Part shown: positions 6,056 through 59,224 of the stretch, one piece after another | Layout: the number at the start of each line of letters is the position of its first letter | Numbering within the stretch: the stretch's first letter is position 1 | Assembly (NCBI GenBank): GCA_023664625.1 | Contig: JAMPFD010000001.1 | Location: 305,874-369,873, forward strand | DNA from: Bacillota bacterium | GTDB taxonomy: Bacteria > Bacteroidota > Bacteroidia > Bacteroidales > Bacteroidaceae | DNA length: 64,000 nt | Direction: 5' to 3' | Notes under the pieces: model-generated | Told to the model about the DNA's origin: nothing | The model's database searches: none | The model's input: only the letters and a program-made list of their open reading frames with translations | Position numbers and translations under genes: made by a program

Positions 6056-6105
6056 CATGCCCGTTTCTTTCCAAATTCCCTGTAAGGAAGTTTCTTTAGC
6101 TACAT

Positions 6106-7363: not shown

Positions 7364-7373
7364 GGGGGGGGGG
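7364..7373. repeat. Intergenic run of ten G
   Basis: Ten consecutive G on the plus strand in AT-rich non-coding DNA. No reading frame crosses it, so if its length varies it would act on a promoter or transcript, not on translation. Confidence 0.6.
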
Positions 7374-7632: not shown

Positions 7633-7748
7633 GGAGGCAAGAAAACAATTCGTTACAGAAGCGGACAACTGAAAGTCAACTCACAAATGAGTGCTTTTGA
7701 CTGAAATTGAAGTTGGCTCCGATTTGTATTGCACTGTAAATCTGTGAT

Positions 7749-7919
7749 AAGTAACTGTTGAAAATTAGTTTATACTAAAACGCAGTTATCTTTGAGGCGG
7801 TTAGTGTACGGGACCGAAGAAGGCGGGCATTGTGACTGAGTGACAAGCTCTAACCGGCCAAAAAGAACAAGCTTTAGTAAGAAGATATTCAATTATAAAA
7901 TAATTTTCAACAGTTACTT
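7749..7919 (+). repeat. MITE-like dispersed repeat, long form, copy C
   Basis: About 171 bp, the best preserved long copy: the left end AAGTAACTGTTGAAAATTAG and the right end ATTTTCAACAGTTACTT are near-perfect inverted repeats. It ends about 80 bp before the terminator of the second SusCD operon. A short open frame that crosses it is not a gene. Confidence 0.85.
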
Positions 7920-38532: not shown

Positions 38533-39457
38533 TGTTCCTCGGATGACATTTTATAATATCCTCGCGCAGGCGTGACACATCCAGATGGGTATAAATCTCC
38601 GTGGTGCCGATCTTCTCGTGTCCCAGCATGACCTGTATGGAACGGAGGTCGGCACCGCCTTCAAGGAGGCAGGTGGCGAAGGAATGGCGCAGAGTGTGCG
38701 GAGAAATGGTCTTTTTTATTCCCGCGGCGATACCGAGACGCTTAATCATTATCAGGATCATGGTGCGCGTCAGGTGCGCCCCGCGCCGGTTCAGGAAGAC
38801 ATAATTCTGCTCCCCAGGCTTTATCTTCATCATATTGCGGTCAATGAACCAATACTCAAGTTCCTGCACCGCACGCGGCGAGATCGGCACAAGACGCTCC
38901 TTGTCACCCTTCCCTATAACACGTATGAAGCCCTCCTCAAGATAAAGATTGGAAAGTTGCAGCCCTACAAGCTCCGAGACACGCAGCCCGCAGGAGAAGA
39001 GCATCTCCACGATGGCCTTGTTCCGCTGCCCCTCCGGCAGAGAAAGGTCTATGGCAGCTTCCAGCATGTCCACCTCCTCCACACTGAGCACCTCCGGAAG
39101 ATGTGCTCCCTGAGCGGGTGACTCGAGAAGTTCCGTGGGGTCCTGCTCCACGAAACCGTCAAGAAGAAGGAATTTGTAGAACGTCCTTATGCCGCTGAGA
39201 ATCCTGGATTGCGAACGCGGAGATATGCCGAGGTCGAACAGTGACGCGAGGAATGCCTGAAGGTCCTCCAATGTCACGCCAAGCAGAGACTTGACAACTT
39301 TATCCTCTCCGATGCCATCCGCTGACGACAGGAAGGACTGCAGCTTGTCAATGTCCCTCATATAGGCATCTATCGTATTCCCTGAATATGAACGCTCAAG
39401 ACGCAGATAACGGCGGAAACGCTTCGTTATTTCCTTGTTATTATTTGCTTTTTCCAT
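38504..39457 (-). CDS. xerD: Tyrosine recombinase XerD-like
   Basis: Site-specific recombinase that resolves chromosome dimers at dif with a partner recombinase. 317 residues with the SAM-like N-terminal domain (FRRYLRLERSYSGNTIDAYMRDI) and the complete catalytic set: Arg159 (CGLRVSEL), Lys183 (GKGDKE), His254 and Arg257 (HTLRHSFAT), His280 (LGHEKIGTT), and Tyr289 (EIYTH). A stand-alone integrase is possible, but there are no phage or transposon neighbours, and the sequence is of the chromosomal XerC/XerD type. The gene is divergent from aroQ with interlocked promoters, and its 3' end overlaps the kinase gene on the other strand. Confidence 0.9.
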   Translation of the reverse strand: MEKANNNKEITKRFRRYLRLERSYSGNTIDAYMRDIDKLQSFLSSADGIGEDKVVKSLLGVTLEDLQAFLASLFDLGISPRSQSRILSGIRTFYKFLLLDGFVEQDPTELLESPAQGAHLPEVLSVEEVDMLEAAIDLSLPEGQRNKAIVEMLFSCGLRVSELVGLQLSNLYLEEGFIRVIGKGDKERLVPISPRAVQELEYWFIDRNMMKIKPGEQNYVFLNRRGAHLTRTMILIMIKRLGIAAGIKKTISPHTLRHSFATCLLEGGADLRSIQVMLGHEKIGTTEIYTHLDVSRLREDIIKCHPRNIKYAQEHGL

Positions 39458-43810: not shown

Positions 43811-43837
43811 ATTTTATAAACAGACCGGCAATATAAT

Positions 43838-43905
43838 AAGTAACTATTGATAATTATTTTATAATATAATGTTTTCTCACTAAAACTAATTTCCAACAGT
43901 TACTT
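43838..43905. repeat. MITE-like dispersed repeat, short form, copy I
   Basis: 68 bp, the cleanest short copy: AAGTAACTATTGATAATTAT at the left and AATTTCCAACAGTTACTT at the right, around the AT-rich core TATAATATAATGTTTTCTCAC. Confidence 0.8.
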
Positions 43906-43995
43906 AGTACTACACACAATAGTGCTACATACTGCAAAAAGGGCTTTTATGTCACTGCAACTTACATCTTTTTCAGAAATACATTCAAAATTATA

Positions 43996-45120
43996 TCAGA
44001 CAATCTCAATGGCAAGCACTTGTTCAATAACAGGTGCCATGTCATAATACTTGTACTGGGCAAGACGCCCACCGAAGATTACATCATCTTCCTTTTCCGC
44101 CAACTTCCGATATTCCTCTGCAAGAATATTATTACGCTCGTTATTCACAGGATAGTAAGGTTCCATCCCTTCTTTGTATTCCGTTGAATACTCCTCGCTG
44201 ACAACAGTCTTAGGACAATCATACACTTCCTGACCGAACATTTCAAAATGCTTATGCTCTATCACACGGGTGTAGGGCTCGTCATGCGATGTATAGTTCA
44301 CCACGGCATTGCCCTGAAAGTTCGGAGTATCCTCCACACGGGTCTTGAAACTTACGGTACGCCAGTCAAGTTTGCCAAGAGAGTAATCGAAATACTCGTC
44401 GATGGCTCCGGTGTACACCAGCTTATCTGCATATTTTCTCCAGTCCCTGTATTCAGAGTGGAAGAAGTCCACACTGGTCAGCGTGTCCGCTCCTTCGAGC
44501 AGCCCTTCCACCAGTTTATTGTAACCACCTACGGGAATGCCCTGATACTTATCATTGAAATAATTGTTATCGAAAATCATGCGTACTGGCAGACGGCGGA
44601 TGATGAATGCGGGCAGTTCAGCACACTTACGTCCCCACTGTTTCTCTGTATATTCCTTTATCAGCTTGTTGAAAATATCCTTACCGACAAGGGTCAGTGC
44701 CTGCTCCTCCAGATTCTGCGGTTCCCTGCCATTCAGTGCCGCAACAGCTTCTGACTTCTGACGGTCAATCTCGGCCTGTGCCTCGGCAGGAGTCTTCACA
44801 TCCCAAAGCCTGCTGAACGTATTCATATTGAAAGGCAGGTTATACAGCTCACCTTTATAGTTTGCCACCGGACTGTTGGTATATCGGTTAAACTCGACAA
44901 TCAAGTTGACGAAATCCCAGACTTCCCGGTTTGATGTATGGAATATATGCGCACCATATTTATGCACATTGATTCCTTCCACCTTTTCACAATACACATT
45001 GCCACCCAATTGTGGACGCTTGTCTATTACAAGACATCGCTTACCTGCCTTATGCGCACGATAAGCAAATGTGGCACCAAATAATCCGGAGCCAACTATC
45101 AGATAGTCATATTTGTTCAT
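43996..45120 (-). CDS. glf: UDP-galactopyranose mutase
   Basis: Flavoenzyme that interconverts UDP-galactopyranose and UDP-galactofuranose, supplying Galf for the surface polysaccharide. The chosen ATG at 45120 gives 374 residues starting NKYDYLIVGSGLFGATFAYR, the FAD-binding fold. The longer open frame adds 31 Cys-rich residues inside the neighbouring gene and is rejected. Other motifs: LGGNVYCEKVEGINVHKYGAH, HTSNREVWDFVN, FNMNTFSRLWDVKTPAEA, YTEKQWGRKCAELP, and the closing FGGRLAQYKYYDMAPVIEQVL. It is the last gene of the minus-strand locus; its start overlaps the acyltransferase stop by 4 nt. Confidence 0.96.
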   Translation of the reverse strand: MNKYDYLIVGSGLFGATFAYRAHKAGKRCLVIDKRPQLGGNVYCEKVEGINVHKYGAHIFHTSNREVWDFVNLIVEFNRYTNSPVANYKGELYNLPFNMNTFSRLWDVKTPAEAQAEIDRQKSEAVAALNGREPQNLEEQALTLVGKDIFNKLIKEYTEKQWGRKCAELPAFIIRRLPVRMIFDNNYFNDKYQGIPVGGYNKLVEGLLEGADTLTSVDFFHSEYRDWRKYADKLVYTGAIDEYFDYSLGKLDWRTVSFKTRVEDTPNFQGNAVVNYTSHDEPYTRVIEHKHFEMFGQEVYDCPKTVVSEEYSTEYKEGMEPYYPVNNERNNILAEEYRKLAEKEDDVIFGGRLAQYKYYDMAPVIEQVLAIEIV

Positions 45121-46128
45121 TTGAATACAAAAAATAAAATTCTCTTTATGATTGGAATTATAGCAACAGACATTATGGCCGTCACAGCAAAACATATCAC
45201 TAATGCAACACAACCATCATTCACAATTTTCTTGATTATAAAACTTGTTCCCATCAAAACAAACATATGAAAACAAAGAATGACTAATGAATTACGACCG
45301 ATATATTGCAACATCTGATTATTACTTATACATTTAGAAACCGCCAAAACAATAATTGAGCCTGCTATTGCAGACAGAAAGAATGTTGGCAGATGACCTG
45401 AATACAGATTGTTCTGCATTGAGCACCCCACTCCCCATAAGCTGGCATAAACATAACATACAACAGCCAAACAAAGCAAGACGGCCCTGCGATTCATGCC
45501 ATTCATCACCCTACGGATATAAGAACCGACAAACACAAATCCCACAGCTGTAAGACCCGTATCGAAAAACAAAGGCAATCGCCATTCTACAAAACGATTC
45601 CAATAAAAGCCTACTGCACAAACACAGAATGCTAAAATCCACCTTAGCCATTCATTGGATGATTTTCGTATGAAATACACCACATTCAAAGAAAAGAACA
45701 GGGCTGAAAGAAACCATATTGGCCCATTTGTGAAATTTCTGCTGAAAAATATATTCCAGAAGCTCACATTGTTCTTCAGCAACTCCGGCTTTATGGAACA
45801 TACAGCCAATGCGAATACGTACGAAAGCACATACACAAACAACATAGGCCATATCAATGTCTTTATTCTTTTTTGACAAAATATCCTATAATGCTCATTT
45901 TTAAGAAAGAAGCCGGATATAAGAAAGAAGCATGGCATATACATAATGCTGATAAACCGATTAATAAAATCAAACTCAGGGACCTTTGGCATATTATTGG
46001 TAGAATGCATCCATATCACCATCAACATCGTTATTCCCTTTGCCACATCTATCGACGCATCACGCCCCCCCCGATTTAGGATTAGTTAACACATCAGAGG
46101 GTGCCTCCACTTCATTTACTTTTGTCAT
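45117..46128 (-). CDS. Acyltransferase (family 3), reading frame split by an 8-G run; probable phase-variable gene
   Basis: Membrane acyltransferase, likely adding acetyl groups to the polysaccharide; about ten hydrophobic segments. The continuous frame starts only at a GTG (46046) and lacks the family N-terminus. On the same strand an ATG at 46128, overlapping the upstream gene's 3' end by 17 nt, opens MTKVNEVEAPSDVLTNPKSG. It then hits a run of eight G (plus-strand C at 46065-46072) and stops at once. With seven or ten G the frame continues as RDASIDVAKGITMLMVIWMH, exactly the family start (Arg...IDVAKGI...His). As given the gene is off. True phase variation and a sequencing error in the run are both possible; the matching N-terminus makes the split itself secure. 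Confidence 0.85.
46065..46072 (-). repeat. Run of eight G that breaks the acyltransferase frame
   Basis: Eight C on the plus strand between codon 19 of the ATG-initiated frame and the acyltransferase body. Seven or ten bases would join the frames; eight or nine lead to an early stop. Confidence 0.85.
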
Positions 46129-46888
46129 ACTTCTTACCTTTAAATTTAGCACTAAGGAATCCTCTTATCTTGCTTCCCCAGTTTTCATCTCCCATCTGCA
46201 CAAATCCGATTTCCTTATACTTGATCTGATTGTGCTCTATCCACACATCCAGCAGAAGCTCACTGACACGGCCGTAAAGGCGGGCATCAAAAGCAGACAT
46301 ATTGGAAGTGTCGATCATAGTCTCCAGTTCAAACAGAATGGGAAACAGCCAGCTGCAATAAGCATCCAGAAAATCACGACGCATGATGAACATATTGAAC
46401 ATGTGGGCGTATGTACGGTCCATGATGCTGTCAAACTGCGGCAGATAGTCAGGACATTGCTTGCGGAGCACTTCGCGGGCCAGTTCCAGATGTTCAATGT
46501 CATGCGTATGCTTGTAGTGCGATGCCAGCGACTCTATATAATAACGTCTCTTCCTGGGCAGAATGACCGCATGTTTTGAACATAACGCCTCTGCCTCTTT
46601 TCCCGACAGGATGCTTGCAAACTTCCATTTCTCCTTGCGGCAGCTGAAATGCCTGCGATAATGTGCCAGACCAATATAATCGGCATCCAGATTCTTCCAC
46701 GCCCAATAGATTGCCGTCAGTTCACAAAAGAAAGGATTCTTTTCCGAAATGTTATCACCCGAATCGTCGCCCATATATCCAAAATCGCTTTTAGCCAAAG
46801 CATTTCCCACACGCACCGGCAGATACATATCATCCATCGGCATGTGATACTTCCTGTGTGTTGCCACACAAATCTTTATCTTCACCAT
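46112..46888 (-). CDS. DUF4422-family glycosyltransferase
   Basis: 258 residues of a family common in exopolysaccharide loci and classed as glycosyltransferases. Signatures: KICVATHRKYHMP at the start, VGDDSGDNIS-type MGDDSGDNISEKNPFFCELTAIYWAWKN, ADYIGLAHYRRHF, and MFNMFIMRRDFLDAYCSWLF. The donor and acceptor are unknown; galactofuranose is possible because UDP-galactopyranose mutase lies two genes on. Its 3' end contains the start codon of the phase-variable acyltransferase frame. Confidence 0.88.
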   Translation of the reverse strand: MVKIKICVATHRKYHMPMDDMYLPVRVGNALAKSDFGYMGDDSGDNISEKNPFFCELTAIYWAWKNLDADYIGLAHYRRHFSCRKEKWKFASILSGKEAEALCSKHAVILPRKRRYYIESLASHYKHTHDIEHLELAREVLRKQCPDYLPQFDSIMDRTYAHMFNMFIMRRDFLDAYCSWLFPILFELETMIDTSNMSAFDARLYGRVSELLLDVWIEHNQIKYKEIGFVQMGDENWGSKIRGFLSAKFKGKKYDKSK

Positions 46889-46898
46889 GTTGTCTATC

Positions 46899-47369
46899 CT
46901 ATTTTTTAAACCAGTTTTCCAATGTTTCCTTTATAATCGATGCGTTGCCGCGCTTCAGTGGCTGAAAACGATAGGTGCGCGCCTTTTCAATCACAGCCGG
47001 CAGATCTTTCGTGTCATAAACACCCAGCACACATCCCAGCTGTTCCATCTTTCTCACCACCTGTCCTTGGTCATGTACGTGCTCCAATCCGTTGATGCGT
47101 GGAATCACCACCACACGTTTTCCTTTGTCCACTGCCTCACACATTCCGCCCCATCCTCCTTGCAGCACCAGGATGTCGGCCTCATCCATCAAGGCTGTCA
47201 TACGCTCTTTGGGGCAGAAGTCAAAATGTTCCTTGATGTGTTCAAACCGATAATGAGTGTAACCCGTCTGCACGACTATCCGCTCATCTGTCGTTGCGGC
47301 ATATTCATCGGCAGCCTTAGCCATACGGCTGAAGTCCTGGTCATGGGTTCCTAAACTAAACAATATCAT
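46899..47369 (-). CDS. Alg13/PssE-like glycosyltransferase subunit (catalytic C-terminal half)
   Basis: 156 residues from the ATG at 47369; the longer GTG-started frame is rejected because it runs back into the partner gene. ILFSLGTHDQDFSRMAKAAD is the usual start and DILVLQGGWGGMCEAVDKGKRVVVIPR is the donor-binding motif of GT28-type C-terminal domains. It works as a two-part enzyme with the membrane-binding Alg14-like subunit encoded directly upstream (4-nt overlap). This gives an enzyme that adds a sugar to a lipid-linked intermediate. Confidence 0.88.
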   Translation of the reverse strand: MILFSLGTHDQDFSRMAKAADEYAATTDERIVVQTGYTHYRFEHIKEHFDFCPKERMTALMDEADILVLQGGWGGMCEAVDKGKRVVVIPRINGLEHVHDQGQVVRKMEQLGCVLGVYDTKDLPAVIEKARTYRFQPLKRGNASIIKETLENWFKK

Positions 47370-47833
47370 AATACTCCTATATATTTTGCGTCCGGGAATA
47401 CCGCCTTCATCTCCTCCCACTGCACACAGAACAAGTCACTGTGCTTATATGCCACGGCAGGAGTACGCGAAGGCGATGTCACATCAGCAGCAGAGCACAC
47501 ATAGATCACCTTGCTGCCAAACAGCTTCTTTCCAAAGAATATCGTGGGATAAGCCATTCCCGAACCTGTGGATATGATGCAGTCGGGACGTTCCTTCACC
47601 AAAAACCAGAGCGACTGAATGGCATTTACCGCCCAAGTCCATTTACTGCCCGGCTTCACATTGATCACATAGTGATGTCGTCGTGTGGAGAGGAATGTCT
47701 TCAGATGCTCCGACTTGAACGTCAGCCAATAGATGTCATACAGGCTTTCGTCAATGTCCTTTGTGGCGAGACGAAGTTCGGCGAAATGCCCTCCCGGACA
47801 ACATGCCATACAAATGCGTGGTTTACGTTTCAT
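47366..47833 (-). CDS. Alg14/PssD-like glycosyltransferase subunit (membrane-binding half)
   Basis: 155 residues. KPRICMACCPGGHFAELRLA is the conserved N-terminal glycine motif, and WAVNAIQSLWFLVKERPDCIISTGSGMAYPTIFFGKKLFGSKVIYV is the membrane-associated centre. The Alg13-like catalytic subunit follows with a 4-nt overlap, and the GT4 gene upstream overlaps it by 4 nt as well, so all three are coupled. Confidence 0.88.
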   Translation of the reverse strand: MKRKPRICMACCPGGHFAELRLATKDIDESLYDIYWLTFKSEHLKTFLSTRRHHYVINVKPGSKWTWAVNAIQSLWFLVKERPDCIISTGSGMAYPTIFFGKKLFGSKVIYVCSAADVTSPSRTPAVAYKHSDLFCVQWEEMKAVFPDAKYIGVL

Positions 47834-48909
47834 CTCAACAAATCGTTATATAATTGCGTTAATGTCTCAAACACAGTCTCCGGCAGGAACGGCTTCACCA
47901 GTTCGGCACTTCGCCGCCCATACTGTTCCACCAGTTCCCGGCTTTCCGTAAAGGTCCTTATCGCACGGTCTATCTCACCACAGTTGCCGGGCTCCACCAG
48001 GATTCCGTTCTCGCCATCCCTCACCACCACCGGAATGCCACCCACCGGCGTAGAGACAACGGGATGTCCGTATGCCATCGCTTCAAGAATGGCAATGGGC
48101 AGTCCCTCATTGAATGACGGCAAGATATACACATCGCACCAGTTGAGGCATTCCGTCTTCTTGTCTCCTTTCACAAAGCCTTCAAACTTCACGAAACTCT
48201 CCAGCCCGGCATCATGTATGATTCTTTTCAGTTTCTCCTCTTCCTGATTTCCTCCTATCCGCAGTTCCAGCTTGTTCCTGTAATAATCACTGTTCATCTC
48301 CAAGACTTTGAGAATATCATAGATTCCTTTCCGTTGGCCTATCACACCCAGATACAACAGATGCAACTTATTCTCGCTTCTTTCCACCGTCCGGAATTGC
48401 GGAGGCGTGATGGTGTTGTTCAGCACAACGATTCTATGATTGTCCACCCCGATTCCCGTGAAATAATCTTTCCACGAATCCGACAGGACGAAGAAACTGT
48501 CGCAGGCATTAATCGTATCTATGATTCTTCTCTTGTGTCCCGACGGATTGTAATATGACTCAAAATCGGCACAATGCATGTGCATGATCACTTTCTTCCC
48601 AAAAACCTTTCCCAACTTCACAAAGAAGATGTTCCGTTCAAACGAAGCAAAGGCGGCTCCCTGTATGTGCACAATCTTTATGTTCCTGTCAAACAGCATA
48701 TACCCCATAAAGACAATGTAAGAATAGATGGCATACCAAAGTTTGGTTGCCAGCCCGCCGTTTTTCCATGTCGGGATAAACTTCATATCCTCGAAATACT
48801 CATCGTAGGATGCCAGCACAGCCGCCATTCCTCCCGGCGCACTGTTCTTGAAGTACTCACCTATCATAAGTACTTTCGAAGAAAGTTCCTTCTTGATTAT
48901 CTTTTCCAT
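47830..48909 (-). CDS. Glycosyltransferase family 4 protein
   Basis: A 359-residue retaining GT-B enzyme. Donor-binding elements: LHLLYLGVIGQRKGIYDILK, SFVKFEGFVKGDKK, and the GT4 signature LPSFNEGLPIAILEAMAYGHPVVST (E-x7-E). NSAPGGMAAVLASYDEYFED near the N-terminus marks the acceptor half. It is transcribed with the kinase-like gene upstream (12-nt gap) and the Alg14-like gene downstream. Confidence 0.93.
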   Translation of the reverse strand: MEKIIKKELSSKVLMIGEYFKNSAPGGMAAVLASYDEYFEDMKFIPTWKNGGLATKLWYAIYSYIVFMGYMLFDRNIKIVHIQGAAFASFERNIFFVKLGKVFGKKVIMHMHCADFESYYNPSGHKRRIIDTINACDSFFVLSDSWKDYFTGIGVDNHRIVVLNNTITPPQFRTVERSENKLHLLYLGVIGQRKGIYDILKVLEMNSDYYRNKLELRIGGNQEEEKLKRIIHDAGLESFVKFEGFVKGDKKTECLNWCDVYILPSFNEGLPIAILEAMAYGHPVVSTPVGGIPVVVRDGENGILVEPGNCGEIDRAIRTFTESRELVEQYGRRSAELVKPFLPETVFETLTQLYNDLLR

Positions 48910-48921
48910 ATCTCTTTTCTC

Positions 48922-49545
48922 TTATTTCAACACCTTTAAGATCTGTTCCACACTCTCCGCTATCGTGCCCGTGTTGTCAACCACGTTCACGTCCGGTTTG
49001 TCCGCCAGGCGCTTGTAAAGCTCAAAACGGAAAGGGAAATCAGGATTGGCATGATTTTCCACCCTGCAGTCCAACACCGCCTGACGGTCGCGGATCACCA
49101 CAAACTGATGCGAGCCTTCCGGAAGTATCTGATGAAACTTCCGATACCATTTCGAATCCAGAATGCCCATCATGCGTCCCTCCGCTCCCAAGTCTATCAG
49201 GATGTCGTTAATCCAACGGTCGCAGATCACGTAGTCTGTCTTCAGCCTCACCACCTTGCGGCGGGCTATCAGATTGTCCAGATACGAACACCACACATAG
49301 ATCTTACAAAACCAGGGCATCTTATAGAGCCTGTGCTCCCAGATGTCACCCATCTCGTTGTGCACCCTCACACTGATTCCCAACACACGCGCCAGGGCAT
49401 TCATCGCCTTCACCGTGTAATGACTGTACCGCATCCATATATACGAGACGCTATTACCCTGCTTCTTCAGTTCCTCCTGCAAGGCATTGATGACGGTGGT
49501 CTTGCCCGAACCGTCCACACCACTTATTATTATATACTTTGTCAT
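48922..49545 (-). CDS. Thymidylate-kinase-like P-loop protein in polysaccharide locus
   Basis: 207 residues from the ATG at 49545; that start overlaps the upstream glycosyltransferase stop by 4 nt, and a longer GTG form is less likely. The P-loop is GVDGSGKTTVINALQ; VICDRWINDILIDLGAE is the DR(Y/W) motif of dTMP kinases, and HQFVVIRDRQAVLDCR sits where the lid is expected. Normal Tmk is about 210 residues, but the sequence around the substrate site (WMRYSHYTVKAMNALARVLG) is unusual. It is therefore probably a kinase for a sugar or lipid intermediate, not the cell's thymidylate kinase. This is inference from context. Confidence 0.72.
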   Translation of the reverse strand: MTKYIIISGVDGSGKTTVINALQEELKKQGNSVSYIWMRYSHYTVKAMNALARVLGISVRVHNEMGDIWEHRLYKMPWFCKIYVWCSYLDNLIARRKVVRLKTDYVICDRWINDILIDLGAEGRMMGILDSKWYRKFHQILPEGSHQFVVIRDRQAVLDCRVENHANPDFPFRFELYKRLADKPDVNVVDNTGTIAESVEQILKVLK

Positions 49546-50690
49546 ATTCCGTTTTGTATCACATCCATCCATTCCTGTCCGACCTGTTCCCACGCCGGAT
49601 GTCTTTCCATTATCCCGGCAGCCTGTTTTCCAAGCACAGCACGCTCCTCAGGCGAGCACCAAAGTTCTCTCAGGGCCTTGGCAAGAGGCTTTACGCCAAG
49701 GCCATCCGTAATCTTCAGCCCATCTTTCAAATAATCCGTTGTTCCGGCGTTGGGGAAACTTACAACAGGGGTTCCGCATGACATGACTTCATAATACGTT
49801 ATCGGAACTTCTGCCGGAATACATATAAACGGCAGCACCACGGCATAGGCTTCCATCATGAACGCTTTCAGCTGAGGCACGGTAAGCGACTCACGCAATA
49901 CCATGACATTTTCCTTATGCATCAAACCATTCAAAGCCTTGAAGAAAGCATCATACTGCGCCCCTACATCATTACGCATAAGGAAGACAATCCTTGCATC
50001 TGAATGACTGTCCGCCAATTTATCAAACGCTTTCAGCAACACCTGACTGCCCCTCACCTCTCCTGGAGCACCGGTGAAAAGAAAAAACTTCTTATTTTGC
50101 AGACCATGCTTCGCAACAATGGAAAAGTCAGGTTCCATATCCTCAAAGCCGTCTTTTCCCGGATAGACTGTATGCGGAGACAAACTGTCTCCAAGCCTGT
50201 CCGTTGTATATTCTGTCAATCCTATTACATCCGAGAAGCCGGCCTTATGCAGTTTCCTTACAATCCACGATTTCGGAGTAAAGGCCTCCAACACCCATGC
50301 CTTTGCAAACAAGCCGTACATCCTCATCAGCCATAAAGCATTTTGTTTGGGTGTGATGCCCGAAGGTACATACGCTATCTTCCGGCATTTCATCTCGTTG
50401 AAGCCGTCAACAGAGCGAAGCCCTTCACGGATGGTTGCAGCGAAGAAGAATGCATCAAATCCCCTGTCATTCACCCATCTGCTAAGTTGACGGAAATCTC
50501 GCGGACATTGCCGGACACAGACACCTTGCCATTCAAAGTCCTCGGCACCTTTCATGCTTACACTGCTGTTCACCACTTCCGCTTCCCAACCATGGCAGTT
50601 CATTACCTTTGCCACTTCAAGAAGCGTGCGGAACGGCATAAGGCGCTCACGCCCCGGGAACAAGTCGACTGTATGTAAGGCTACTTTCAT
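49542..50690 (-). CDS. Glycosyltransferase (GT4-like)
   Basis: A 382-residue GT-B enzyme: VALHTVDLFPGRERLMPFRT at the start, FLFTGAPGEVRGSQVLLKAFDKL and ARIVFLMRND in the donor domain, and IPAEVPITYYEVMSCGTPVVSF in place of the usual E-x7-E signature. The acceptor is unknown. It overlaps its neighbours by 4 nt at both ends (ATGA-type), so it is tightly coupled to the nucleotidyltransferase upstream and the kinase downstream. Confidence 0.87.
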   Translation of the reverse strand: MKVALHTVDLFPGRERLMPFRTLLEVAKVMNCHGWEAEVVNSSVSMKGAEDFEWQGVCVRQCPRDFRQLSRWVNDRGFDAFFFAATIREGLRSVDGFNEMKCRKIAYVPSGITPKQNALWLMRMYGLFAKAWVLEAFTPKSWIVRKLHKAGFSDVIGLTEYTTDRLGDSLSPHTVYPGKDGFEDMEPDFSIVAKHGLQNKKFFLFTGAPGEVRGSQVLLKAFDKLADSHSDARIVFLMRNDVGAQYDAFFKALNGLMHKENVMVLRESLTVPQLKAFMMEAYAVVLPFICIPAEVPITYYEVMSCGTPVVSFPNAGTTDYLKDGLKITDGLGVKPLAKALRELWCSPEERAVLGKQAAGIMERHPAWEQVGQEWMDVIQNGI

Positions 50691-51391
50691 TTCTTCAGAT
50701 GTTCGTGAGTAAACATTTTCTTGAAATCTTCAAAGGACATCAGCTCCTTATAATACCGCTGAGCCTCATTGTTAACATCCTTAAAGACAATCGGCATTTC
50801 ATCCTTGCTCATTACATCATAAGAATGCTTCATCGTAAAAATATACATGTCCAGCGGATAAGCCCTGAAAAAGGCTATCATTCTCTCGCGAAGCCCTACA
50901 AGACAGGCTTTCCAGAAATTCCACTCTCCTTTTGCTGGGATGAAACGTATGTCTATGTCACTGGAGTTATGCCAGCGTCCTTTCGACAGCGACCCATAAC
51001 TGATAGCTGCCGCCACGCACTTGTCTTTCTGCAACCGTCGCTGCATGGCTACGGTTCCGTCATAAAATGCCTGCGCCGTCATGTTGCCGGCCTTGATATG
51101 ATAAAACACGCATATCGCCTGCCCATTGATGCAATAATTGATGACGTGTGCGATAAACAGTCCCGCCCACCACGGCATCACCAGGCTCAGCAATATGGTT
51201 ATCACCACATCCATTCCAATCTTTATCACATTGTCCCTCCAGTTGGCATAAAGCATTCCCTGAAGTATAAAACTCGTGATAAACGTGATGTAGCCGTAGC
51301 TCATCCACTCGTCAAACCACGTTCCCTGCAACCTCTTCGGCAGGTGCTTCTTCTTGTGCTTTGTAAACAAAGCGTAGATGTATCTGTTCAT
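50687..51391 (-). CDS. Membrane-anchored nucleotidyltransferase-domain protein
   Basis: 234 residues from the ATG at 51391 (a TTG at 51448 would add 19). Residues about 30-100 hold two or three hydrophobic segments (YITFITSFILQGML, VVITILLSLVMPWWAGLFIAHVI). The C-terminal half has the polymerase-beta-type motif ISYGSLSKGRWHNSSDIDIRF: GS, then D-x-D metal ligands. This combination of membrane anchor and minimal nucleotidyltransferase is unusual. It might attach a nucleotidyl or phospho-group to a lipid-linked glycan, working with the kinase-like protein encoded two genes on; that is inference. It is the first gene of the more GC-rich half of the locus. Confidence 0.75.
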   Translation of the reverse strand: MNRYIYALFTKHKKKHLPKRLQGTWFDEWMSYGYITFITSFILQGMLYANWRDNVIKIGMDVVITILLSLVMPWWAGLFIAHVINYCINGQAICVFYHIKAGNMTAQAFYDGTVAMQRRLQKDKCVAAAISYGSLSKGRWHNSSDIDIRFIPAKGEWNFWKACLVGLRERMIAFFRAYPLDMYIFTMKHSYDVMSKDEMPIVFKDVNNEAQRYYKELMSFEDFKKMFTHEHLKK

Positions 51392-51462
51392 GTTGTATTC
51401 GCTTATCTGTTTATTCTTTCTAATCAAATAACTCTGCAGACTTAACAAAAAAGAAATATAAA

Positions 51463-52560
51463 TTACCTCTCACCAAATATTGCTTCATAACCTTTCGCAC
51501 ATTGTGCAATAGTGTATTGACTATTTTTTTTAGTTGCTTGGCAATAGTTTTTCAACGAACATTCTAGAATAAGAAAACATTCTAATGCCTCATTATACGA
51601 AGTAATTTCATTATCCTTACTTAATATTCCATTTTGTTTATCTTTAATCACATCAATAACACCACATACAGGGGTCGAAATAACAGGAATACCTGAATTC
51701 ACACATTCAATAAGAGTGATTGGCATACCTTCAAAAACAGAAGAGAGACAAAATGCGTCAGAACAGAGAATATAATCTCCTACATTTGTTTTTGTACCCA
51801 AAAATTTAACATTATCACAGGCTATTGATTTAAGGAACAAGCCCTCTGGTGTATCATCAAAATGTGAACCTATAATAAGCAATATCACATCTTTTCCCGA
51901 TTCAACAAATCTATTAAATGCTTTGATAAGTAATTCCTGATTTTTTTGCGGAGCACATCGGGCTATATGGAGAAAAACCTTTGTCTCCGATGTCATTTTA
52001 TAGGAATTTATTTCTGTTACAACATCACCTTTTCTTTCAGTGGGAATCAATGGTGCACGACCATTATAAACAAGATGGTTTTCTAACTTAGGGTATATTA
52101 AATTAAAATCATTATAATTTGTTTGTGATATTGTCACATAGCGCAATAATTTTAAACGCCCTAAAACATTAAAAATTATCTTAATCTTAGTAGCAGCATA
52201 TACCGTTTTAATATCATTATGTATAGTAAGGTAAAACTTATACATCCTACCAAGAAGCAAAATAGCAAGTATAGCAAACATGTGACACATATGAAGATGA
52301 ACGACATCTGGCTTTACTTGACGAATACATTCCACGATTTTCCACAAAACCTGTAATCTACATCTTTCATCTAATTTCATATTTATATAATGAACTTTGG
52401 CTGATAGTTCTTGTCTGTAAAACCCAAAATCAGTCAACTGGTCGTCCCATAAAGTTACCAAAGTAACATCATTTGATTTAGCTAATTCATTACATAAATC
52501 CACAACTAATCTTTCACCACCTCCAGACCGTAAAGAAGGTATTATTTCAATGATTTTCAT
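51463..52560 (-). CDS. Glycosyltransferase family 4 protein
   Basis: 365 residues. IIEIIPSLRSGGGERLVVDLCNELAKS is the classic GT4 N-terminus. VKPDVVHLHMCHMFAIL, KVFLHIARCAPQKNQELLIKAF, NVKFLGTKTNVGDYI and the signature SSVFEGMPITLIECVNSGIPVISTPV (E-x7-E) follow. Base composition is markedly more AT-rich than in the genes from 44 to 51.4 kb. It overlaps the pyruvyltransferase gene by 14 nt. Confidence 0.93.
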   Translation of the reverse strand: MKIIEIIPSLRSGGGERLVVDLCNELAKSNDVTLVTLWDDQLTDFGFYRQELSAKVHYINMKLDERCRLQVLWKIVECIRQVKPDVVHLHMCHMFAILAILLLGRMYKFYLTIHNDIKTVYAATKIKIIFNVLGRLKLLRYVTISQTNYNDFNLIYPKLENHLVYNGRAPLIPTERKGDVVTEINSYKMTSETKVFLHIARCAPQKNQELLIKAFNRFVESGKDVILLIIGSHFDDTPEGLFLKSIACDNVKFLGTKTNVGDYILCSDAFCLSSVFEGMPITLIECVNSGIPVISTPVCGVIDVIKDKQNGILSKDNEITSYNEALECFLILECSLKNYCQATKKNSQYTIAQCAKGYEAIFGER

Positions 52561-53629
52561 TAAAAAAACTCTTTAACACATCAATTGAAAACTTACGTTT
52601 TTCTTCTATTTTCTGATTTACAAAATCCCAATTTATTGGAATATCTCTTTCTATATTAACATCCAATCCTTCCCTATGCAAAATTTCTAATTCCGTACAC
52701 AAGCTAATCATTCTAGATTTATTTCCCCTATTATAATAGAAAACAGGTGTATTGAAATACAGCGAAAAAAGCAAACCATGATAACTTGCTGTAAAAACAC
52801 ATTCTGCATTTTGGAATAATGCAATCCAATCATAAAATGTTTCTGGCATTATGAGCTTTATTCCACGAATTAACTCTGGAATACCAAATTTTATGAAATA
52901 AACGGGAATATTATATTTTTTACCGTAATTAACAGCATCCTTTATATTTTTCTTATTCTTATCTCGCATGTAAACTAATACATACCTATTTTCAGGTACA
53001 TTTTCTTTACGAGAATATGTTGTCCAAAAATCAGCATTAAAAAGCATTGTTGGATCACACGTTGTATATATATTCTTATTTATAAGTTTTCCTAACCATT
53101 CGGCTGCTAATTGTTCACGCGTTGAGATCTGCTCAAACCGAGACAACAAAATCTTAATCTGCTCTGAATCTTCATCACTCCATTTTTCTCCAACAGAAGA
53201 AGAAAATGCAAGTTTTCTTTTATTGTCCTTAACGAACTGAAGCATGTAATTAAAATCATGTCCAGTAATATCCATTCCCCAAACGATATCACTTCCAACA
53301 ACAAATGTGTCATACCTCTCATTTAATTTCTCTATACCGTATTTATCCACCCTTACGCTTAACCGCATATTTTTATGGACAAAATCTTGATAATTATTCC
53401 ATTTTCTTCTATTCGCATTACGAACTATGAGCCATTCAAAAATAGCCGTTATACTATGTGATTCAAATAGGTTTTTAAGTCGTTCACGTTCCCATATTTT
53501 ATCACATTTATAATCTACAAGTTCAACGTCAACACCAATACTCTCTAAAGCTTTGTAAGTACTAAATGCCTGAGCTAAAGAGCCGTAATTTAATGTTTCA
53601 TGGATTGTAATAAGTCCCACTTTTTCCAT
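52547..53629 (-). CDS. Polysaccharide pyruvyl transferase family protein
   Basis: 360 residues of the family that transfers pyruvate from phosphoenolpyruvate to a sugar as a ketal. Conserved parts: ETLNYGSLAQAFSTYKALES at the start, VVGSDIVWGMDITGHDFNYML, SSSVGEKWSDEDSEQI, TCDPTMLF, and ECVFTASYHGLLFSLYFNTPVFYYNRG near the C-terminus. The product would be an acidic pyruvylated sugar in the surface glycan. It ends 14 nt inside the next GT4 gene and lies 3 nt from the ThDP enzyme gene, so the two could be linked in making or placing an acidic group. Confidence 0.9.
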   Translation of the reverse strand: MEKVGLITIHETLNYGSLAQAFSTYKALESIGVDVELVDYKCDKIWERERLKNLFESHSITAIFEWLIVRNANRRKWNNYQDFVHKNMRLSVRVDKYGIEKLNERYDTFVVGSDIVWGMDITGHDFNYMLQFVKDNKRKLAFSSSVGEKWSDEDSEQIKILLSRFEQISTREQLAAEWLGKLINKNIYTTCDPTMLFNADFWTTYSRKENVPENRYVLVYMRDKNKKNIKDAVNYGKKYNIPVYFIKFGIPELIRGIKLIMPETFYDWIALFQNAECVFTASYHGLLFSLYFNTPVFYYNRGNKSRMISLCTELEILHREGLDVNIERDIPINWDFVNQKIEEKRKFSIDVLKSFFNENH

Positions 53630-53632
53630 ATT

Positions 53633-55375
53633 TCACTTATTTAAAAGTTTTTTCGCAAAAATTCTTATCCCGTTCATCTCTGGGGAATTTTTTAAATCTG
53701 TCACTGTCTTTTTTAAATAAGCATACCTCGTTTGCATCGTTATCAATTCAAACGCTCTGCTCTCATCCTCTGTATTAGTAAAGACTTCAAATAGAATTGG
53801 GCGCTCTGTCATTATCGGCGAAAGGAAATAATCAACATTCTGATTAAATTCATCTTTGCTTTTTGCTGTCAGGTACTCAAAACCAAGTGCTTCTGCATAA
53901 GCCTTAACCAAAGTGTACGATTTTTTTCCAAAATGTCCTTCAGCTGCTGTAAACTCATTAATACAATTCCCCAAAACAGATCCTCCAAAACAATAATTTT
54001 TAAATTCTTGTCCCAGCCCATTATTAATCATCAGAATCCTTACATTAGATTTTATATGACGATTACCTATGCTGTTCATGTCATAAAAAAACAATAAATC
54101 TCCAAAGACACCAAAAAAAATCTTGTCCACACTTACAAAAGAAGCACCTAACATTGAGGAGATTCCTCCATCAATACCAAATCCACCTGTATTACAATAA
54201 CCCAGAACCGATTGTGGTACTTCAAAATAATTCCAAGAACGGAGACTATTACGAATACCTAAATGTAAAACCGATTTTTCAGGAAGTTTATTTGCCATTT
54301 GCTGAGCAATCCACATATTCGAAAAAGGCAGTTCAGGAATACCAATAAGAAGTTTTTTATATTTTTCCACATAAGACGTCCAAAGAGTATTTTTATGAGA
54401 ATCTTCTTGTCCTAATGTATATGCTTTAAAGAAAGTGAGTTCAGACATTTGGAAAACATTGTTCATCTTTTTAAAAGGATCTCGAATCTCACCGTCCTCA
54501 TTTACACGCCAAATACGCTTTCCTGTAAAAATACAATTACTAACATGTCCTATATGAATAAGAGTATCTATTGTTTCAGCCCCTTTATCTGCCCCATACT
54601 GATCGTTCATTAACGGAAATAAAATACGATATTTTCCTTTATAGTTAGACGTATGATCACAAAAAACGCATGCATCATAAATACCACAGAATCTATCAAC
54701 AAGGGCAGTCAGTTCATCTGACCACTGGTTATGAGCCCCCACAAAAATACCAACCGTTCCTTTTGGGATATCGGGCAACTTATCTTCTAATGTGTATCTG
54801 TTTATGACACGCACTTTGGGAAGTTCTTTCACATTAAATACTGGACTGCGTTGAGTTGCCAAATTTATATGGCAAGGTCCTCCGCCATTACGCATAAGAG
54901 CTAAGATGGCTTTATTAACCTTAATCATAACATCCCATTCATCATCAGGTGTATCTACCACCTGCACTTGTACACTCACTTGGGCGACATCATTGGGTAA
55001 AACGGTTCTATCTGTAGATTGATCCACATTATGACCTATCAAGTTATTGTCACGGCTACAAGTAATTGCGAGCACAGGTAACTTGCGATAAAATGCTTCT
55101 GTCAATCCTGGCATATAGTTACGAGAAGAAGTTGCACCTGTACATGTAATAACAACAGGTTCACCACTCTCAGCAGCCATTCCACAAGCCAGATAAGCCG
55201 CACCTCTTTCATCAACCTCACTATACATTTCAAACCATGGGTCATGCTGGAAACTTACAACAATTGCCATATCTGTAGCACCTGGGGATGCTATAATCTT
55301 TCGAATACCATGTTCCTTCAGAAGTTTTTGTATAATCTGCACGCTCTTCTCACTAGAATAATGAATTTCCGACAT
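53633..55375 (-). CDS. MenD-like thiamine diphosphate-dependent enzyme
   Basis: A 580-residue ThDP enzyme. The N-terminal half is MenD-like: KIIASPGATDMAIVVSFQ, YSEVDERGAAYLACGMAAESGEPVVITCTGATSSRNY with the catalytic-site Glu in VDERGA, and LTEAFYRKLPVLAITCSRD. The cofactor half has GDLLFFYDMNSIGNRHIKSN with the Asp and Asn that bind Mg-diphosphate, and ILMINNGLG. No menaquinone genes adjoin it. In surface-polysaccharide loci such enzymes decarboxylate a 2-oxo acid and add the resulting group to a sugar or make an aldehyde. It is a plausible source of a branched-chain or otherwise rare residue. The substrate cannot be told. Confidence 0.88.
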   Translation of the reverse strand: MSEIHYSSEKSVQIIQKLLKEHGIRKIIASPGATDMAIVVSFQHDPWFEMYSEVDERGAAYLACGMAAESGEPVVITCTGATSSRNYMPGLTEAFYRKLPVLAITCSRDNNLIGHNVDQSTDRTVLPNDVAQVSVQVQVVDTPDDEWDVMIKVNKAILALMRNGGGPCHINLATQRSPVFNVKELPKVRVINRYTLEDKLPDIPKGTVGIFVGAHNQWSDELTALVDRFCGIYDACVFCDHTSNYKGKYRILFPLMNDQYGADKGAETIDTLIHIGHVSNCIFTGKRIWRVNEDGEIRDPFKKMNNVFQMSELTFFKAYTLGQEDSHKNTLWTSYVEKYKKLLIGIPELPFSNMWIAQQMANKLPEKSVLHLGIRNSLRSWNYFEVPQSVLGYCNTGGFGIDGGISSMLGASFVSVDKIFFGVFGDLLFFYDMNSIGNRHIKSNVRILMINNGLGQEFKNYCFGGSVLGNCINEFTAAEGHFGKKSYTLVKAYAEALGFEYLTAKSKDEFNQNVDYFLSPIMTERPILFEVFTNTEDESRAFELITMQTRYAYLKKTVTDLKNSPEMNGIRIFAKKLLNK

Positions 55376-55378
55376 AAT

Positions 55379-55999
55379 TTAATTTATAAAATAAAAATTC
55401 AACTTTATATTTCTTTCACTACAAAAGGATAGTATTTCAGAGAACGGACATACTACATTTTCCAAATTACATCTCGGCTTAATAGAAAATAAAACTTTAA
55501 ACGAGCCTACGGGTGAAAATAAAAAAGGTAATTTACACAATCTTTTCATATAATAAAGATTCCTATCCATAAGTAAGAAATCATGCATATATGGAATATC
55601 GAAGACAGAAATTTTGCCGTTTTTTACTTGTTTCTTATGCATTATAATCACAAGCGTTCCATTATCTTCATCTATCAAACTATACAGTCTTTTAACAAGT
55701 TCAAATATGGAATATATTGAACGCGGTGTAGGAGAATAATATGAAATACTATTGGGATAATCAATATCAACCCAATCTGCTATAACTAAATATTTATAAT
55801 TCCGTTCTATTGTTGAAAACAACATACGTGCATTATACGAAATCCTATCATAAACAATTTTATTTGTATAAAAGAACAAAACTAAAAAACACAATAATGC
55901 GTACACATACACACATCTGGCGTAAACAGCTATAGTGAGCATAACAACTGCACAAATTACCAAAAGACATATGGTCTTACTTAATTTATATTTCTTCAT
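55379..55999 (-). CDS. Unknown protein with two N-terminal membrane segments
   Basis: 206 residues from the ATG at 55999, which follows the aldo/keto reductase stop by 5 nt; an ATG at 56026 would overlap that gene. Two hydrophobic segments lie at about residues 7-48 (TICLLVICAVVMLTIAVYA, YVYALLCFLVLFFY). The remaining part, VADWVDIDYPNSISYYSPTPRSIYSIFELVKRLY and FDIPYMHDFLLMDRNLYYMKRLC, matches no family I recognise. The layout (two segments then a cytoplasmic domain) could be an anchored transferase or a chain-length helper. Very AT-rich. Confidence 0.6.
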   Translation of the reverse strand: MKKYKLSKTICLLVICAVVMLTIAVYARCVYVYALLCFLVLFFYTNKIVYDRISYNARMLFSTIERNYKYLVIADWVDIDYPNSISYYSPTPRSIYSIFELVKRLYSLIDEDNGTLVIIMHKKQVKNGKISVFDIPYMHDFLLMDRNLYYMKRLCKLPFLFSPVGSFKVLFSIKPRCNLENVVCPFSEILSFCSERNIKLNFYFIN

Positions 56000-56004
56000 A
56001 TCTG

Positions 56005-56817
56005 TTAAAATCCAGGGCATCCCCATGATTCAAGAAATATTTTGTAATTTTGATTCATTGATGATATTACATTTATCTCTTCATCAGTTAGAGAAAAATC
56101 AAAAATATCTATATTTTCCTTTATTCTAGAAGGCTTAGTGGACATAAATACAGGTATTACACCTGAGTCTATATGCCACCTCAAGATTATCTGAGCTACC
56201 TTTTTTTTGTATTTTTCGGATAATGATTCTAAATACGAACTATCTTTTATCATCGGATGCATTCTACATAAAGGAGAATAAGCAAATACTTTTATTTTGT
56301 GTTGGGCACAATAATCAAGCTCAGCAGAACATGTTCTCAACGGATGTCGTTCAATTTGTACATAATTAGGATTTATACCTCTGCTCTCCCATTGTTTTAA
56401 ATGCCTTACACGCACATTACATATTCCAACATTTTTAACAATACCTTCAGAAACCAATTCCATAAAACATCTCCAAGTCTTATCTAAATATTTGTCAATT
56501 GGCCAATGAATATATAAAAGATCAATATACTCTGTATCTATTTTTTTTAATGCATTTTCTACATAAGGACGTATTTCGCCGTCACTCTTATACATTTGCC
56601 AAGCATCAACCTTATCTGATAAGAAAAAATTTTCACGTTTTAAATTCATTGCATTACAGCATTCGCGAATAGCACGCCCTAAGTATAGTTCCGTTCCATA
56701 GCTTGGTGCAGTATCAAATCCAAAAAAGCCATTCTCTACACTAACCCTTACAACGTCCAACAAGCTTTTATAGTTCTTGTTTTGAAACGTTCCAATCATT
56801 AATTTAGGCGTCTCCAT
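56005..56817 (-). CDS. Aldo/keto reductase
   Basis: 270 residues from the ATG at 56817, which directly follows the upstream glycosyltransferase stop; a longer start at 56898 would overlap it by 80 nt. The catalytic tetrad is present: Asp and Tyr in GFDTAPSYGTE, Lys in FFLSDKVDA, and His in LLYIHWPID. GICNVRVRHLKQW and VQIERHPLRTC follow the usual barrel order. It is an NADPH-dependent carbonyl reductase that could reduce the aldehyde or ketone product of the ThDP enzyme encoded two genes on. That link is inference. Confidence 0.9.
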   Translation of the reverse strand: METPKLMIGTFQNKNYKSLLDVVRVSVENGFFGFDTAPSYGTELYLGRAIRECCNAMNLKRENFFLSDKVDAWQMYKSDGEIRPYVENALKKIDTEYIDLLYIHWPIDKYLDKTWRCFMELVSEGIVKNVGICNVRVRHLKQWESRGINPNYVQIERHPLRTCSAELDYCAQHKIKVFAYSPLCRMHPMIKDSSYLESLSEKYKKKVAQIILRWHIDSGVIPVFMSTKPSRIKENIDIFDFSLTDEEINVISSMNQNYKIFLESWGCPGF

Positions 56818-56818
56818 A

Positions 56819-57916
56819 TCATCGTTTATCCATAATATTGTTAAAATAGTCAATATATCGTATAGATACAGCTTCAAGCCCAAAATTTGCCTGAGCATAA
56901 GTATAAAGATTATTTTTCATTTGAGTATATTCGTCCTTGCTCATAGAAACGGCTCGAACAATAACTTGGCGGAATGATTCAAGATCATTTTTTTTGAATA
57001 TGAAACCATTTTCACCATCAACTATACGCTCCGTAAATCCATCAATGTCAGAAGCTATGACAGGCAGATTATAATAATAAGCTACCATATGTGGACCACT
57101 TTGTGCTACATCTTCATATGGAAGCATCAAAAAATCATGTTTTGTAAACAATTCTGCAACTTCTTCATCTGGAATACGTTTAAAATAAGTCGTTATATTT
57201 TTATTATCTCCAATTAATTGTTTATAATAACCTGCCTGACCTTTATCATCACCTGCAATTGTCAAATGAATTTTTCCTAATATATCCTTTGGCAAGGATT
57301 TAATCGTTTCAATAAGCAAATCTAGTCGTTTATTCGCAATAATATTTCCAAAAAATAGCAAGTTGACCTTATTTCTATCTATGTCATAATTTGATGTTGT
57401 CATATTTCCATAGCCTTTCAAAGTCATAGGACAATAAAACATTGATTTTTGTGGAAATTTTGCCTCAAAATATTTAGCCGTAAATTTGGAAAACAATTGA
57501 AAATAGTTGTGATGACTGAATATATAATCAACGCAATTAATTAACCTTTGTGGCCACACGTCATATGCAATTACATTATGAGCAGCATGAATTATAGGGG
57601 TTTCTCCTGCTAATTTAAGAAGTATCTTATGATAATGTAGATTGCCAACCACATCCGAATAAATCAAATCACTTTTTGTAAGATGCAATTTGTATATATG
57701 CAAATACATTTCAATAATAGAAAGAGGATTTCGATAACCAAATTTACATTTCATATATTTAACATCAATATCACATGGGATTTGTACTCGACTACCTTTC
57801 CCTATTAAAACATACCAATCAATATCATAATATTCGCGTAAATACGGTACTAATAAAAAATCAACATCAATAAAATAGTCCGCAGTAATCCAAGTGATTT
57901 TTTTCTTGTTCATCAT
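56819..57916 (-). CDS. Glycosyltransferase (GT4-like)
   Basis: 365 residues. ITWITADYFIDVDFLLVPYLRE begins the acceptor domain. The donor domain has VNLLFFGNIIANKRLDLLIETIKSL, KIHLTIAGDDKGQAGYYKQL, YFKRIPDEEVAELF, and LPYEDVAQSGPHMVAYYYNLPVIASDIDGF, a variant of the GT4 signature. Its start is close to a good -7 box (58008-58015), so an internal transcript may begin here. Confidence 0.88.
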   Translation of the reverse strand: MMNKKKITWITADYFIDVDFLLVPYLREYYDIDWYVLIGKGSRVQIPCDIDVKYMKCKFGYRNPLSIIEMYLHIYKLHLTKSDLIYSDVVGNLHYHKILLKLAGETPIIHAAHNVIAYDVWPQRLINCVDYIFSHHNYFQLFSKFTAKYFEAKFPQKSMFYCPMTLKGYGNMTTSNYDIDRNKVNLLFFGNIIANKRLDLLIETIKSLPKDILGKIHLTIAGDDKGQAGYYKQLIGDNKNITTYFKRIPDEEVAELFTKHDFLMLPYEDVAQSGPHMVAYYYNLPVIASDIDGFTERIVDGENGFIFKKNDLESFRQVIVRAVSMSKDEYTQMKNNLYTYAQANFGLEAVSIRYIDYFNNIMDKR

Positions 57917-58216: not shown

Positions 58217-59224
58217 CTATTTTTTTACACTTAAAAACTCTATGCTTCTATATATTTGTTTTTTTACATTACTACAAAGCATAATTGCAATAATTTCAGC
58301 CAATGTTATCTTATACAATTCTGATATATGTAAACAATCCAACGATATGAATATATTATAAAGCAACAAATGAAGTATATATAACTCCAATGTATATTTG
58401 CCAAACCAATCCAATAATTTCTTTAAAGCCTTAATGGCATAATAATCGCTCATCAAACTAAAAAAAACACAAATCATTGGCATATATATTGTTACACGAG
58501 ATAATATACTAAAATACGAAGGATTGGCTTGTTTCAAATACAAAGAACATAATAATAATATTATATAAATCATATTACCCACAATGTTCCTTGTTTCCTT
58601 TTTTTTAGATAATGACGCAGAATATACCCCTAACACAAATGCAGGAACTTGGGTTACGGTGTGTATCACTAAATTATAATAATCTAAATTATTTTTTTTT
58701 AGCAGTTCCAATGAAATACAAACAAAAACAAAAAACAAGATATACTGAATATGTTCTGTCCTGAAACTTGTAAGAACTACATGTATTATTGGATAAAACA
58801 AATATAATAAAACAGATAAAGAAACATACCACATTCCATAAAAATTTCCACTAATCCAGTATTTCAATGTCGTTATTTCCTCAAAAAGATCCAATACACC
58901 ATTATGGTTCAGCCTATTCAAAAGCAACAATAATGGGAAAGAAATTAAAACATATGGTATATATAAACGTAAAATCCTTTTTTTATAAAAGGATATCCAG
59001 CTTGGTTCTTTTTCCATAGAATAATATAGACCGTATCCAGATAGGAATAAAAAAGCAGGAGTGAATGCCAATTTCGTAAAAAAATAAAGCGAATTATATA
59101 GTACCGAATTGCATGCGATATTGGAACTATGCAACCAATGTGCTATGAAAACTCCTATTATTGCTATACCCATTAATGTGGTTCGGTAAGTCCCAAATAA
59201 TTTAAAGTCAAATATATTATTCAT
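58217..59224 (-). CDS. Acyltransferase family 3 membrane protein
   Basis: 335 residues with about ten hydrophobic segments. The family start is recognisable: TYRTTLMGIAIIGVFIAHWLH (Arg ... His), followed by FFTKLAFTPAFLFLSGYGLYYS and YKKRILRLYIPYVLISF. It probably O-acetylates a sugar of the repeat unit using acetyl-CoA from the cytoplasm. It starts 4 nt after the polymerase stop and is followed by the wzy remnant. AT-rich like its neighbours. Confidence 0.88.
   Translation of the reverse strand: MNNIFDFKLFGTYRTTLMGIAIIGVFIAHWLHSSNIACNSVLYNSLYFFTKLAFTPAFLFLSGYGLYYSMEKEPSWISFYKKRILRLYIPYVLISFPLLLLLNRLNHNGVLDLFEEITTLKYWISGNFYGMWYVSLSVLLYLFYPIIHVVLTSFRTEHIQYILFFVFVCISLELLKKNNLDYYNLVIHTVTQVPAFVLGVYSASLSKKKETRNIVGNMIYIILLLCSLYLKQANPSYFSILSRVTIYMPMICVFFSLMSDYYAIKALKKLLDWFGKYTLELYILHLLLYNIFISLDCLHISELYKITLAEIIAIMLCSNVKKQIYRSIEFLSVKK

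Follow-up and report, generated by a model that had tools for sequence, protein, structure and literature searches.

The enzymes encoded by oafA of Haemophilus influenzae and lot3 of Neisseria meningitidis are acyltransferase-3 proteins that O-acetylate a surface glycan; lot3 is phase-variable, and both genes switch by simple repeats. On/off switching of oafA has been described (PMC9558356). In Campylobacter jejuni, where switching is established, the polyG/polyC phasome consists of numerous G runs located in the surface genes of a single genome; in strain NCTC11168 there are 29 loci whose runs reach at least seven (PMC4965091). In the order Bacteroidales, phase variation is usually described through DNA inversion, as the first-pass annotation of the DNA studied here had remarked. 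This agrees with a 2025 review, the available part of which covers inversion-based phase variation of capsule loci, restriction systems and SusC/SusD in Bacteroides fragilis (PMC12632263).

No description of polyG phase variation in Bacteroidales was found among the open-literature matches listed. In the parts available, the review just cited makes no mention of slipped or homopolymer, PMC12118408 contains none of five slippage- or homopolymer-type terms, and PMC2831843 contains no Bacteroid- or Prevotella names. The nearest case is that of Bacteroides fragilis 638R, in which an extra C in a run of four was reported in an acetyltransferase-related gene of a polysaccharide locus, slippage being suggested as a possible source of variation in the polysaccharide (PMC3090145, available in part). 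Subscription journals and bioRxiv preprints are mostly outside this coverage, so an earlier description is possible.

The locus described here lies in a window of 64,000 nucleotides (the whole stretch of DNA that was analysed) belonging to a genome of 2.87 Mb in 32 contigs, hereafter the source genome. As in oafA and lot3, the gene product is an acyltransferase-3 enzyme predicted to O-acetylate a surface glycan. It differs from these in belonging to another phylum, in its setting among genes for a Wzx/Wzy-type polysaccharide rather than a link to the lipooligosaccharide core, and in that its switching is a prediction. Like Campylobacter jejuni, the source genome has many G runs, in surface genes; unlike that species, its switching is predicted from the DNA, it keeps MutS1, and of its 36 runs with at least eight G, 19 have no assigned gene. 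The mechanism in Bacteroides fragilis concerns the same order and the same kinds of target, but there it is recombinase inversion, whereas a change of run length is proposed here. The 638R case involves a single gene and was offered as a possibility; in the source genome there is a genome-wide set of tracts.

The proposed slippage site is a run of eight G at 46065-46072 on the minus strand (C on the plus strand). An upstream frame of 22 codons, MTKVNEVEAPSDVLTNPKSGGA, extends from an ATG at 46128 to a TGA directly past the run (46060..46128, minus strand). The ATG sits within the last codons of the upstream gene, overlapping its end; it is followed by 18 full codons, counting itself, and codon 19 (TCG) contains the first G of the run, which thus forms a long mononucleotide tract in the 5' part of the ORF. 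The acyltransferase-3 frame emerges from the same run (45117..46070, minus strand) and continues for another 315 codons with no second stop or other lesion. This frame contains the whole PF01757 domain (E 3.4e-33, 115.5 bits against a curated cut-off of 31, profile positions 2-323 of 326). It includes a K-X10-H motif, KGITMLMVIWMH, that fits the R/K-X10-H of the first helix, named as a motif of the family in the available part of PMC9558356. By eye, KRIK is found on the cytoplasmic side of helix 3 at the position of RXXR, another acyltransferase-3 motif (PMC9833829, available in part), which it matches inexactly. By frame arithmetic, the length of the tract decides whether the reading frame is open or closed. 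Both the run of eight G and the stop that follows it in the ATG frame, which had been pointed out before, can be read directly from the sequence, and the lengths then named as joining the two frames (seven or ten G) agree with the arithmetic.

The acyltransferase gene is the next-to-last in a series of minus-strand genes that probably form one operon. Its downstream neighbour (43996..45120, minus strand) codes for UDP-galactopyranose mutase (PF03275), and the ATG of this gene overlaps the acyltransferase stop codon. The upstream neighbour (46112..46888, minus strand) codes for a DUF4422 protein (PF14393), read as a glycosyltransferase. The minus-strand stretch 46899..57916 encodes an Alg14-like protein paired with a GT28-like one, four group 1 glycosyltransferases, a pyruvyl transferase, a TPP enzyme, an aldo/keto reductase and some proteins without an assignment. 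It is followed by the second acyltransferase-3 gene of the operon (58217..59224, minus strand), which is intact and has no G run of seven or more, and by two minus-strand genes for membrane proteins without a Pfam match, read as a Wzy-like polymerase (59229-60443) and a Wzx-like flippase (60440-61993). The predicted gene make-up is that of a Wzx/Wzy-type surface polysaccharide locus, and the presence of a predicted acyltransferase-3 gene among polysaccharide genes provides the surface-structure target expected of a contingency locus. The window also contains a gene for a phage-integrase-family recombinase (38504-39457).

Long G runs are over-represented in the source genome when compared to its composition. 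There are 55 runs of exactly six G, 11 of seven and 36 of eight or more (14 of eight, nine of nine, nine of ten, two of 11 and one each of 17 and 21), giving 47 of seven or more. The number of runs of at least eight predicted from the geometric tail of the short runs is 2.75 to 4.28 (P < 1e-20); the 6-to-7 run ratio of 0.2, close to the P(G|G) of 0.217 in the window, gives 2.8-3.1. The window by itself shows a modest excess, with eight matches of seven G against 2.81 expected, a count reached in one of 100 shuffles. Runs of at least nine G with a preceding base number 21, and one more begins at a contig end. Among 298 other genomes drawn from the genus, only two exceed this count (31 and 23) and three equal it, while roughly five of every six have between 0 and 6 such runs; among 149 genomes drawn from the order, the source genome has the highest G-run count. 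Chance alone is ruled out as the cause by the break in run lengths at eight and by the control gene families described below. Loss of MutS1 is also ruled out, as a MutS1 match over the curated cut-off was found in all 20 genomes searched (these have many or few runs, and include the source genome); slippage is thus not raised by loss of MutS1. The two longest runs consist of 21 G (L049:4131-4151) and 17 G (L052:2049-2065). The former stands at the end of contig C21, which suggests that additional loci may be hidden where long runs interrupt an assembly.

Thirteen of the 36 runs lie inside a gene whose frame is open on both sides, and eight of these 13 are out of frame, which is near the two thirds expected for a freely changing length and far from the result of purifying selection on the frame. 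Besides the run at 46065-46072 (minus strand), the out-of-frame cases are two further acyltransferase-3 genes (C27:110570 and C30:121584), a hexapeptide transferase (C27:109989), a pyruvyl transferase (C27:98253), a membrane transferase resembling PMT_2, with a score slightly under the Pfam threshold (C27:105962), a DUF285/BspA-type protein (C27:148695) and a Sel1 protein (C21:4799). The in-frame cases include an acyltransferase-3 gene (C27:111882) that scores 48.3 bits as a whole and 27.1 bits, under the cut-off, for the piece downstream of the run alone. The others are a GH25 gene (C27:143015), a long coiled protein with nine G that is read as a phage tape measure and has no Pfam match (C31:12907), and two genes for which the effect of a slip can be foreseen. 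In a SusC/TonB-dependent receptor gene of the window (10022-13138), eight G follow the putative signal peptide (13035-13042, minus strand), and a change of length would turn the transporter off. In hsdS (type I restriction, C11:48767), eight G lie between the two specificity domains; a slip would remove the second domain, perhaps altering the methylated motif. Four more runs are at or near the ends of genes (a group 1 glycosyltransferase, WbsX, a GntR regulator, and a protein read as a regulator without Pfam match). The remaining 19 fall between genes, within repeats or at the ends of contigs, or have no assigned gene.

Six runs of at least eight G are gathered in one glycan locus, C27:96200-120000, where they are hosted by a pyruvyl transferase, the end of a group 1 glycosyltransferase, the PMT_2-like gene, a hexapeptide transferase and two acyltransferase-3 genes. 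A different setting is seen at 7364-7373 of the window, where ten G lie in a 2-kb convergent intergenic region with an interspersed repeat. Copies of this repeat are found near 6102-6285, 7745-7868 and 43836-43907, and parts of it are common to the flanks of a G10 run (C11:185667) and a G9 run (C26:186786). A homopolymer control, in which shifted frames were counted, gave 5 of 8 scored G/C runs of at least eight and 2 of 27 G/C runs of five; for A/T runs the figures were 2/10 (at least eight), 5/15 (seven) and 8/40 (six). This control is noisy, overlapping neighbour genes being scored as breaks, and the case does not rest on it.

Acyltransferase-3 genes are hit far above expectation. The source genome has 11 of them (from 12 matches, two belonging to one gene), four with a run that lies inside the family match or no more than 10 bases away from it, where 0.1 to 0.17 would be expected (Poisson P 4.6e-6 to 2.7e-5). 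In 24 loci from other genomes of the genus, chosen only for likeness to the focal protein, a run was present in 3 of 24 genes and in none of the flanks, i.e. 3 runs in 25.1 kb of genes versus 0 in 62.7 kb of flanks (P 0.023). In 12 related genomes, most of them picked for many runs, a run was found in 9 of 30 acyltransferase-3 loci versus none of 30 MatE and none of 30 tRNA-synthetase loci (Fisher P 2e-5). Some of these loci share a gene; when distinct genes are counted, the result is 9/29 versus 0/54 controls (P 3e-5), or versus 0/29 for MatE alone (P 9e-4). The same 30 acyltransferase-3 loci contain 9 runs in 32.5 kb of genes versus 5 in 83.6 kb of flanks (P 0.005). In the comparison with controls, the surroundings had 5 runs in 82.0 kb for the acyltransferase genes, 3 in 45.3 kb for tRNA-synthetase genes and 0 in 59.4 kb for MatE genes, so runs as such are also found in other neighbourhoods. 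Twelve runs within acyltransferase-3 genes of relatives were assigned as eight in frame and four out of frame; these are rough calls from a search that favours intact genes.

Acyltransferase genes broken at a tract also occur in relatives. In Palleniella muris NM73_A23 (G125), several acyltransferase-3 genes carry a run internally or at their start, some out of frame (C1:79819, C3:97269 and C19:33695) and others in frame (C3:100755 and C19:24692). Genomes G194 and G006 have one out-of-frame acyltransferase gene each, and G194 has another in frame. Eight split genes could be placed on the family profile, and in four of them (C27:110570, G125:C1:79819, G125:C3:97269 and G006:C107:37551) the break is at about positions 63 to 78, as if this loop were a tolerated seat for the tract. 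The others break near 99 and 106 (G125:C19:33695, with a run of seven, and G194:C2:714210), near 149 (C30:121584), and, for the focal gene, before position 2. Parabacteroides massiliensis SN4, which belongs to a different genus of Bacteroidales, has three runs of 8 to 10 G (L098:729, 3512 and 5244) near a UDP-galactopyranose mutase gene. They stand at the beginning of frames that were read by eye as hexapeptide-kind transferases; Pfam searches with 70-residue pieces of the three gave one weak hexapeptide match under the cut-off and left two unmatched. In another genome, a short element that contains G9 to G10 is present three times with near-identical flanks (G162:C1:1307463, 1312106 and 1318788) and is possibly a promoter-type switch.

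A direct orthologue with another run length was not found. At E 1e-10 there were matches in 24 of 299 genomes of the genus, its own included, the 23 non-self genomes showing at most 33% identity to the focal protein. As far as can be read from the assembled DNA, the nearest thing to an observed length change is a pair of paralogues in the source genome, C27:110570 (G9, out of frame) and C27:111882 (G8, in frame), which carry the run at the same aligned site.

Several other explanations of the locus have to be weighed. The true start might be GTG 46046 or a later codon, in which case the enzyme would always be made, a few residues short, and the tract would lie in the leader. In the present frame GTG 46046 is the earliest start codon for the acyltransferase reading, and it opens an ORF of 309 aa in the frame of the domain, which is the annotated length (45117..46046, minus strand). 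This ORF retains most of the domain, K-X10-H included, and is short of roughly six residues that precede the core of the domain, amounting to four positions of the profile. The first-pass annotation was therefore correct that the GTG form misses the family N-terminus, but this does not prove that function is lost. Its proposal that the N-terminus be compared with homologues was followed by tblastn against 60 loci with acyltransferase-3 genes, of which 27 could be aligned at E 1e-3 or better. All 27 alignments begin at query residue 1 to 8, and in each of these loci (26 genes) an in-frame ATG lies at least seven residues upstream of the GTG-form start; most of them also have a pattern like IDxAKGI...H. 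The K of K-X10-H would be only residue 3 of the GTG form, and at other acyltransferase loci the run falls inside the domain. Given the homologous ATGs and the position of the motif, it is unlikely that the GTG-form product is the normal enzyme, although it may be active, and we regard a start at or beyond the GTG as distinctly improbable. Alternatively, the G run might be a site of programmed transcriptional slippage or ribosomal frameshifting that yields a low, constant share of full-length enzyme. The available part of PMC3711429 lists runs of at least eight identical bases among slippage motifs, although its introduction concerns A or T runs. The RNA at the tract has no unusual structure (z -0.94), and runs of eight and of nine bases occur both in and out of frame, which is better accounted for by a switch at the DNA level; this explanation is very improbable.

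It is also conceivable that the gene is dead, a single slip having broken a frame that is now decaying without useful switching. The focal gene is indeed out of frame in the single genome at hand, and some of its neighbours look truly decayed. For example, the copy at C27:110570 also ends early (profile 78-197), and the acyltransferase-3 gene C27:117620-118473 is broken near six A (C27:118282) instead of a G run, which shows that the source genome is also subject to ordinary decay or error. Against this, the frame covering nearly the entire profile has no lesion other than the tract, and random decay does not explain the concentration of runs in acyltransferase genes across species; we consider a dead gene improbable. 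Error in assembly or base calling, with a real run of fixed, in-frame length, is highly unlikely. Homopolymers are error-prone, the break near six A may be of this kind, and runs like the 21 G that end contig C21 may trouble an assembler. However, the long run itself is the anomaly, and an error of one base cannot produce it. The MatE and tRNA-synthetase matches listed for the 12 relatives have no internal stops, and their 60 control loci have no genic runs. The same kind of tract-broken acyltransferase genes is found in Palleniella muris, where a contig title gives cov_473.894.

The reading we prefer is that of a slipped-strand, phase-variable switch of surface-glycan acylation that is part of a large polyG phasome and is assembled here in the OFF state; on the sequence evidence this is quite probable. 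The original proposal of a candidate phase-variable glycan acyltransferase is thereby supported by a break confined to the tract, the polysaccharide operon, the genomic excess of runs, the enrichment in acyltransferase-3 genes, the G9/G8 paralogues and the ATGs of homologues. Translation would start at ATG 46128, which appears to be the true start, and would continue across the G tract to reach the acyltransferase-3 domain. As the DNA is replicated, slipped-strand mispairing would alter the length of the tract, presumably at useful rates; one length class in three would hold the frame, the others stopping within a few codons, and the assembled copy would have an OFF length. In the ON state, this membrane enzyme would add acyl groups, most likely O-acetyl groups, to the repeat unit that the surrounding Wzx/Wzy-type operon makes; the product probably acetylates a surface glycan. 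A clonal population would then be a mix of acylated and bare cells, and the focal locus would be one of many polyG contingency loci in the genome. More tentatively, we suggest that Bacteroidales commensals with intact MutS run a large polyG phasome whose main targets are glycan acyltransferases (acyltransferase-3 and hexapeptide types), a generalization that is nearly as probable as its opposite. The mechanism is of a known kind, while its genus-wide scale and its aim at acyltransferases look new within the literature searched.

With so many slip-prone runs, the source organism may, like Campylobacter and Neisseria, change its surface chemistry through slips in DNA copying. If so, a single clone would display surface acylation in many combinations, in addition to the capsule switching by inversion that is known in the order. 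Gene callers would record such variation as truncated or missing genes, and surveys confined to inversion would overlook it. A 2025 review asks, in its available part, why genomes rich in phase-variable loci appear to be restricted to pathogens (PMC11868660). Judging by the names of the relatives, the source organism and its kin are probably gut commensals, and a Prevotella-type genome with 36 long G runs would, together with these relatives, be a counter-example among apparent gut commensals. The surface glycans that are read by phages and by host immunity would then vary within clones.
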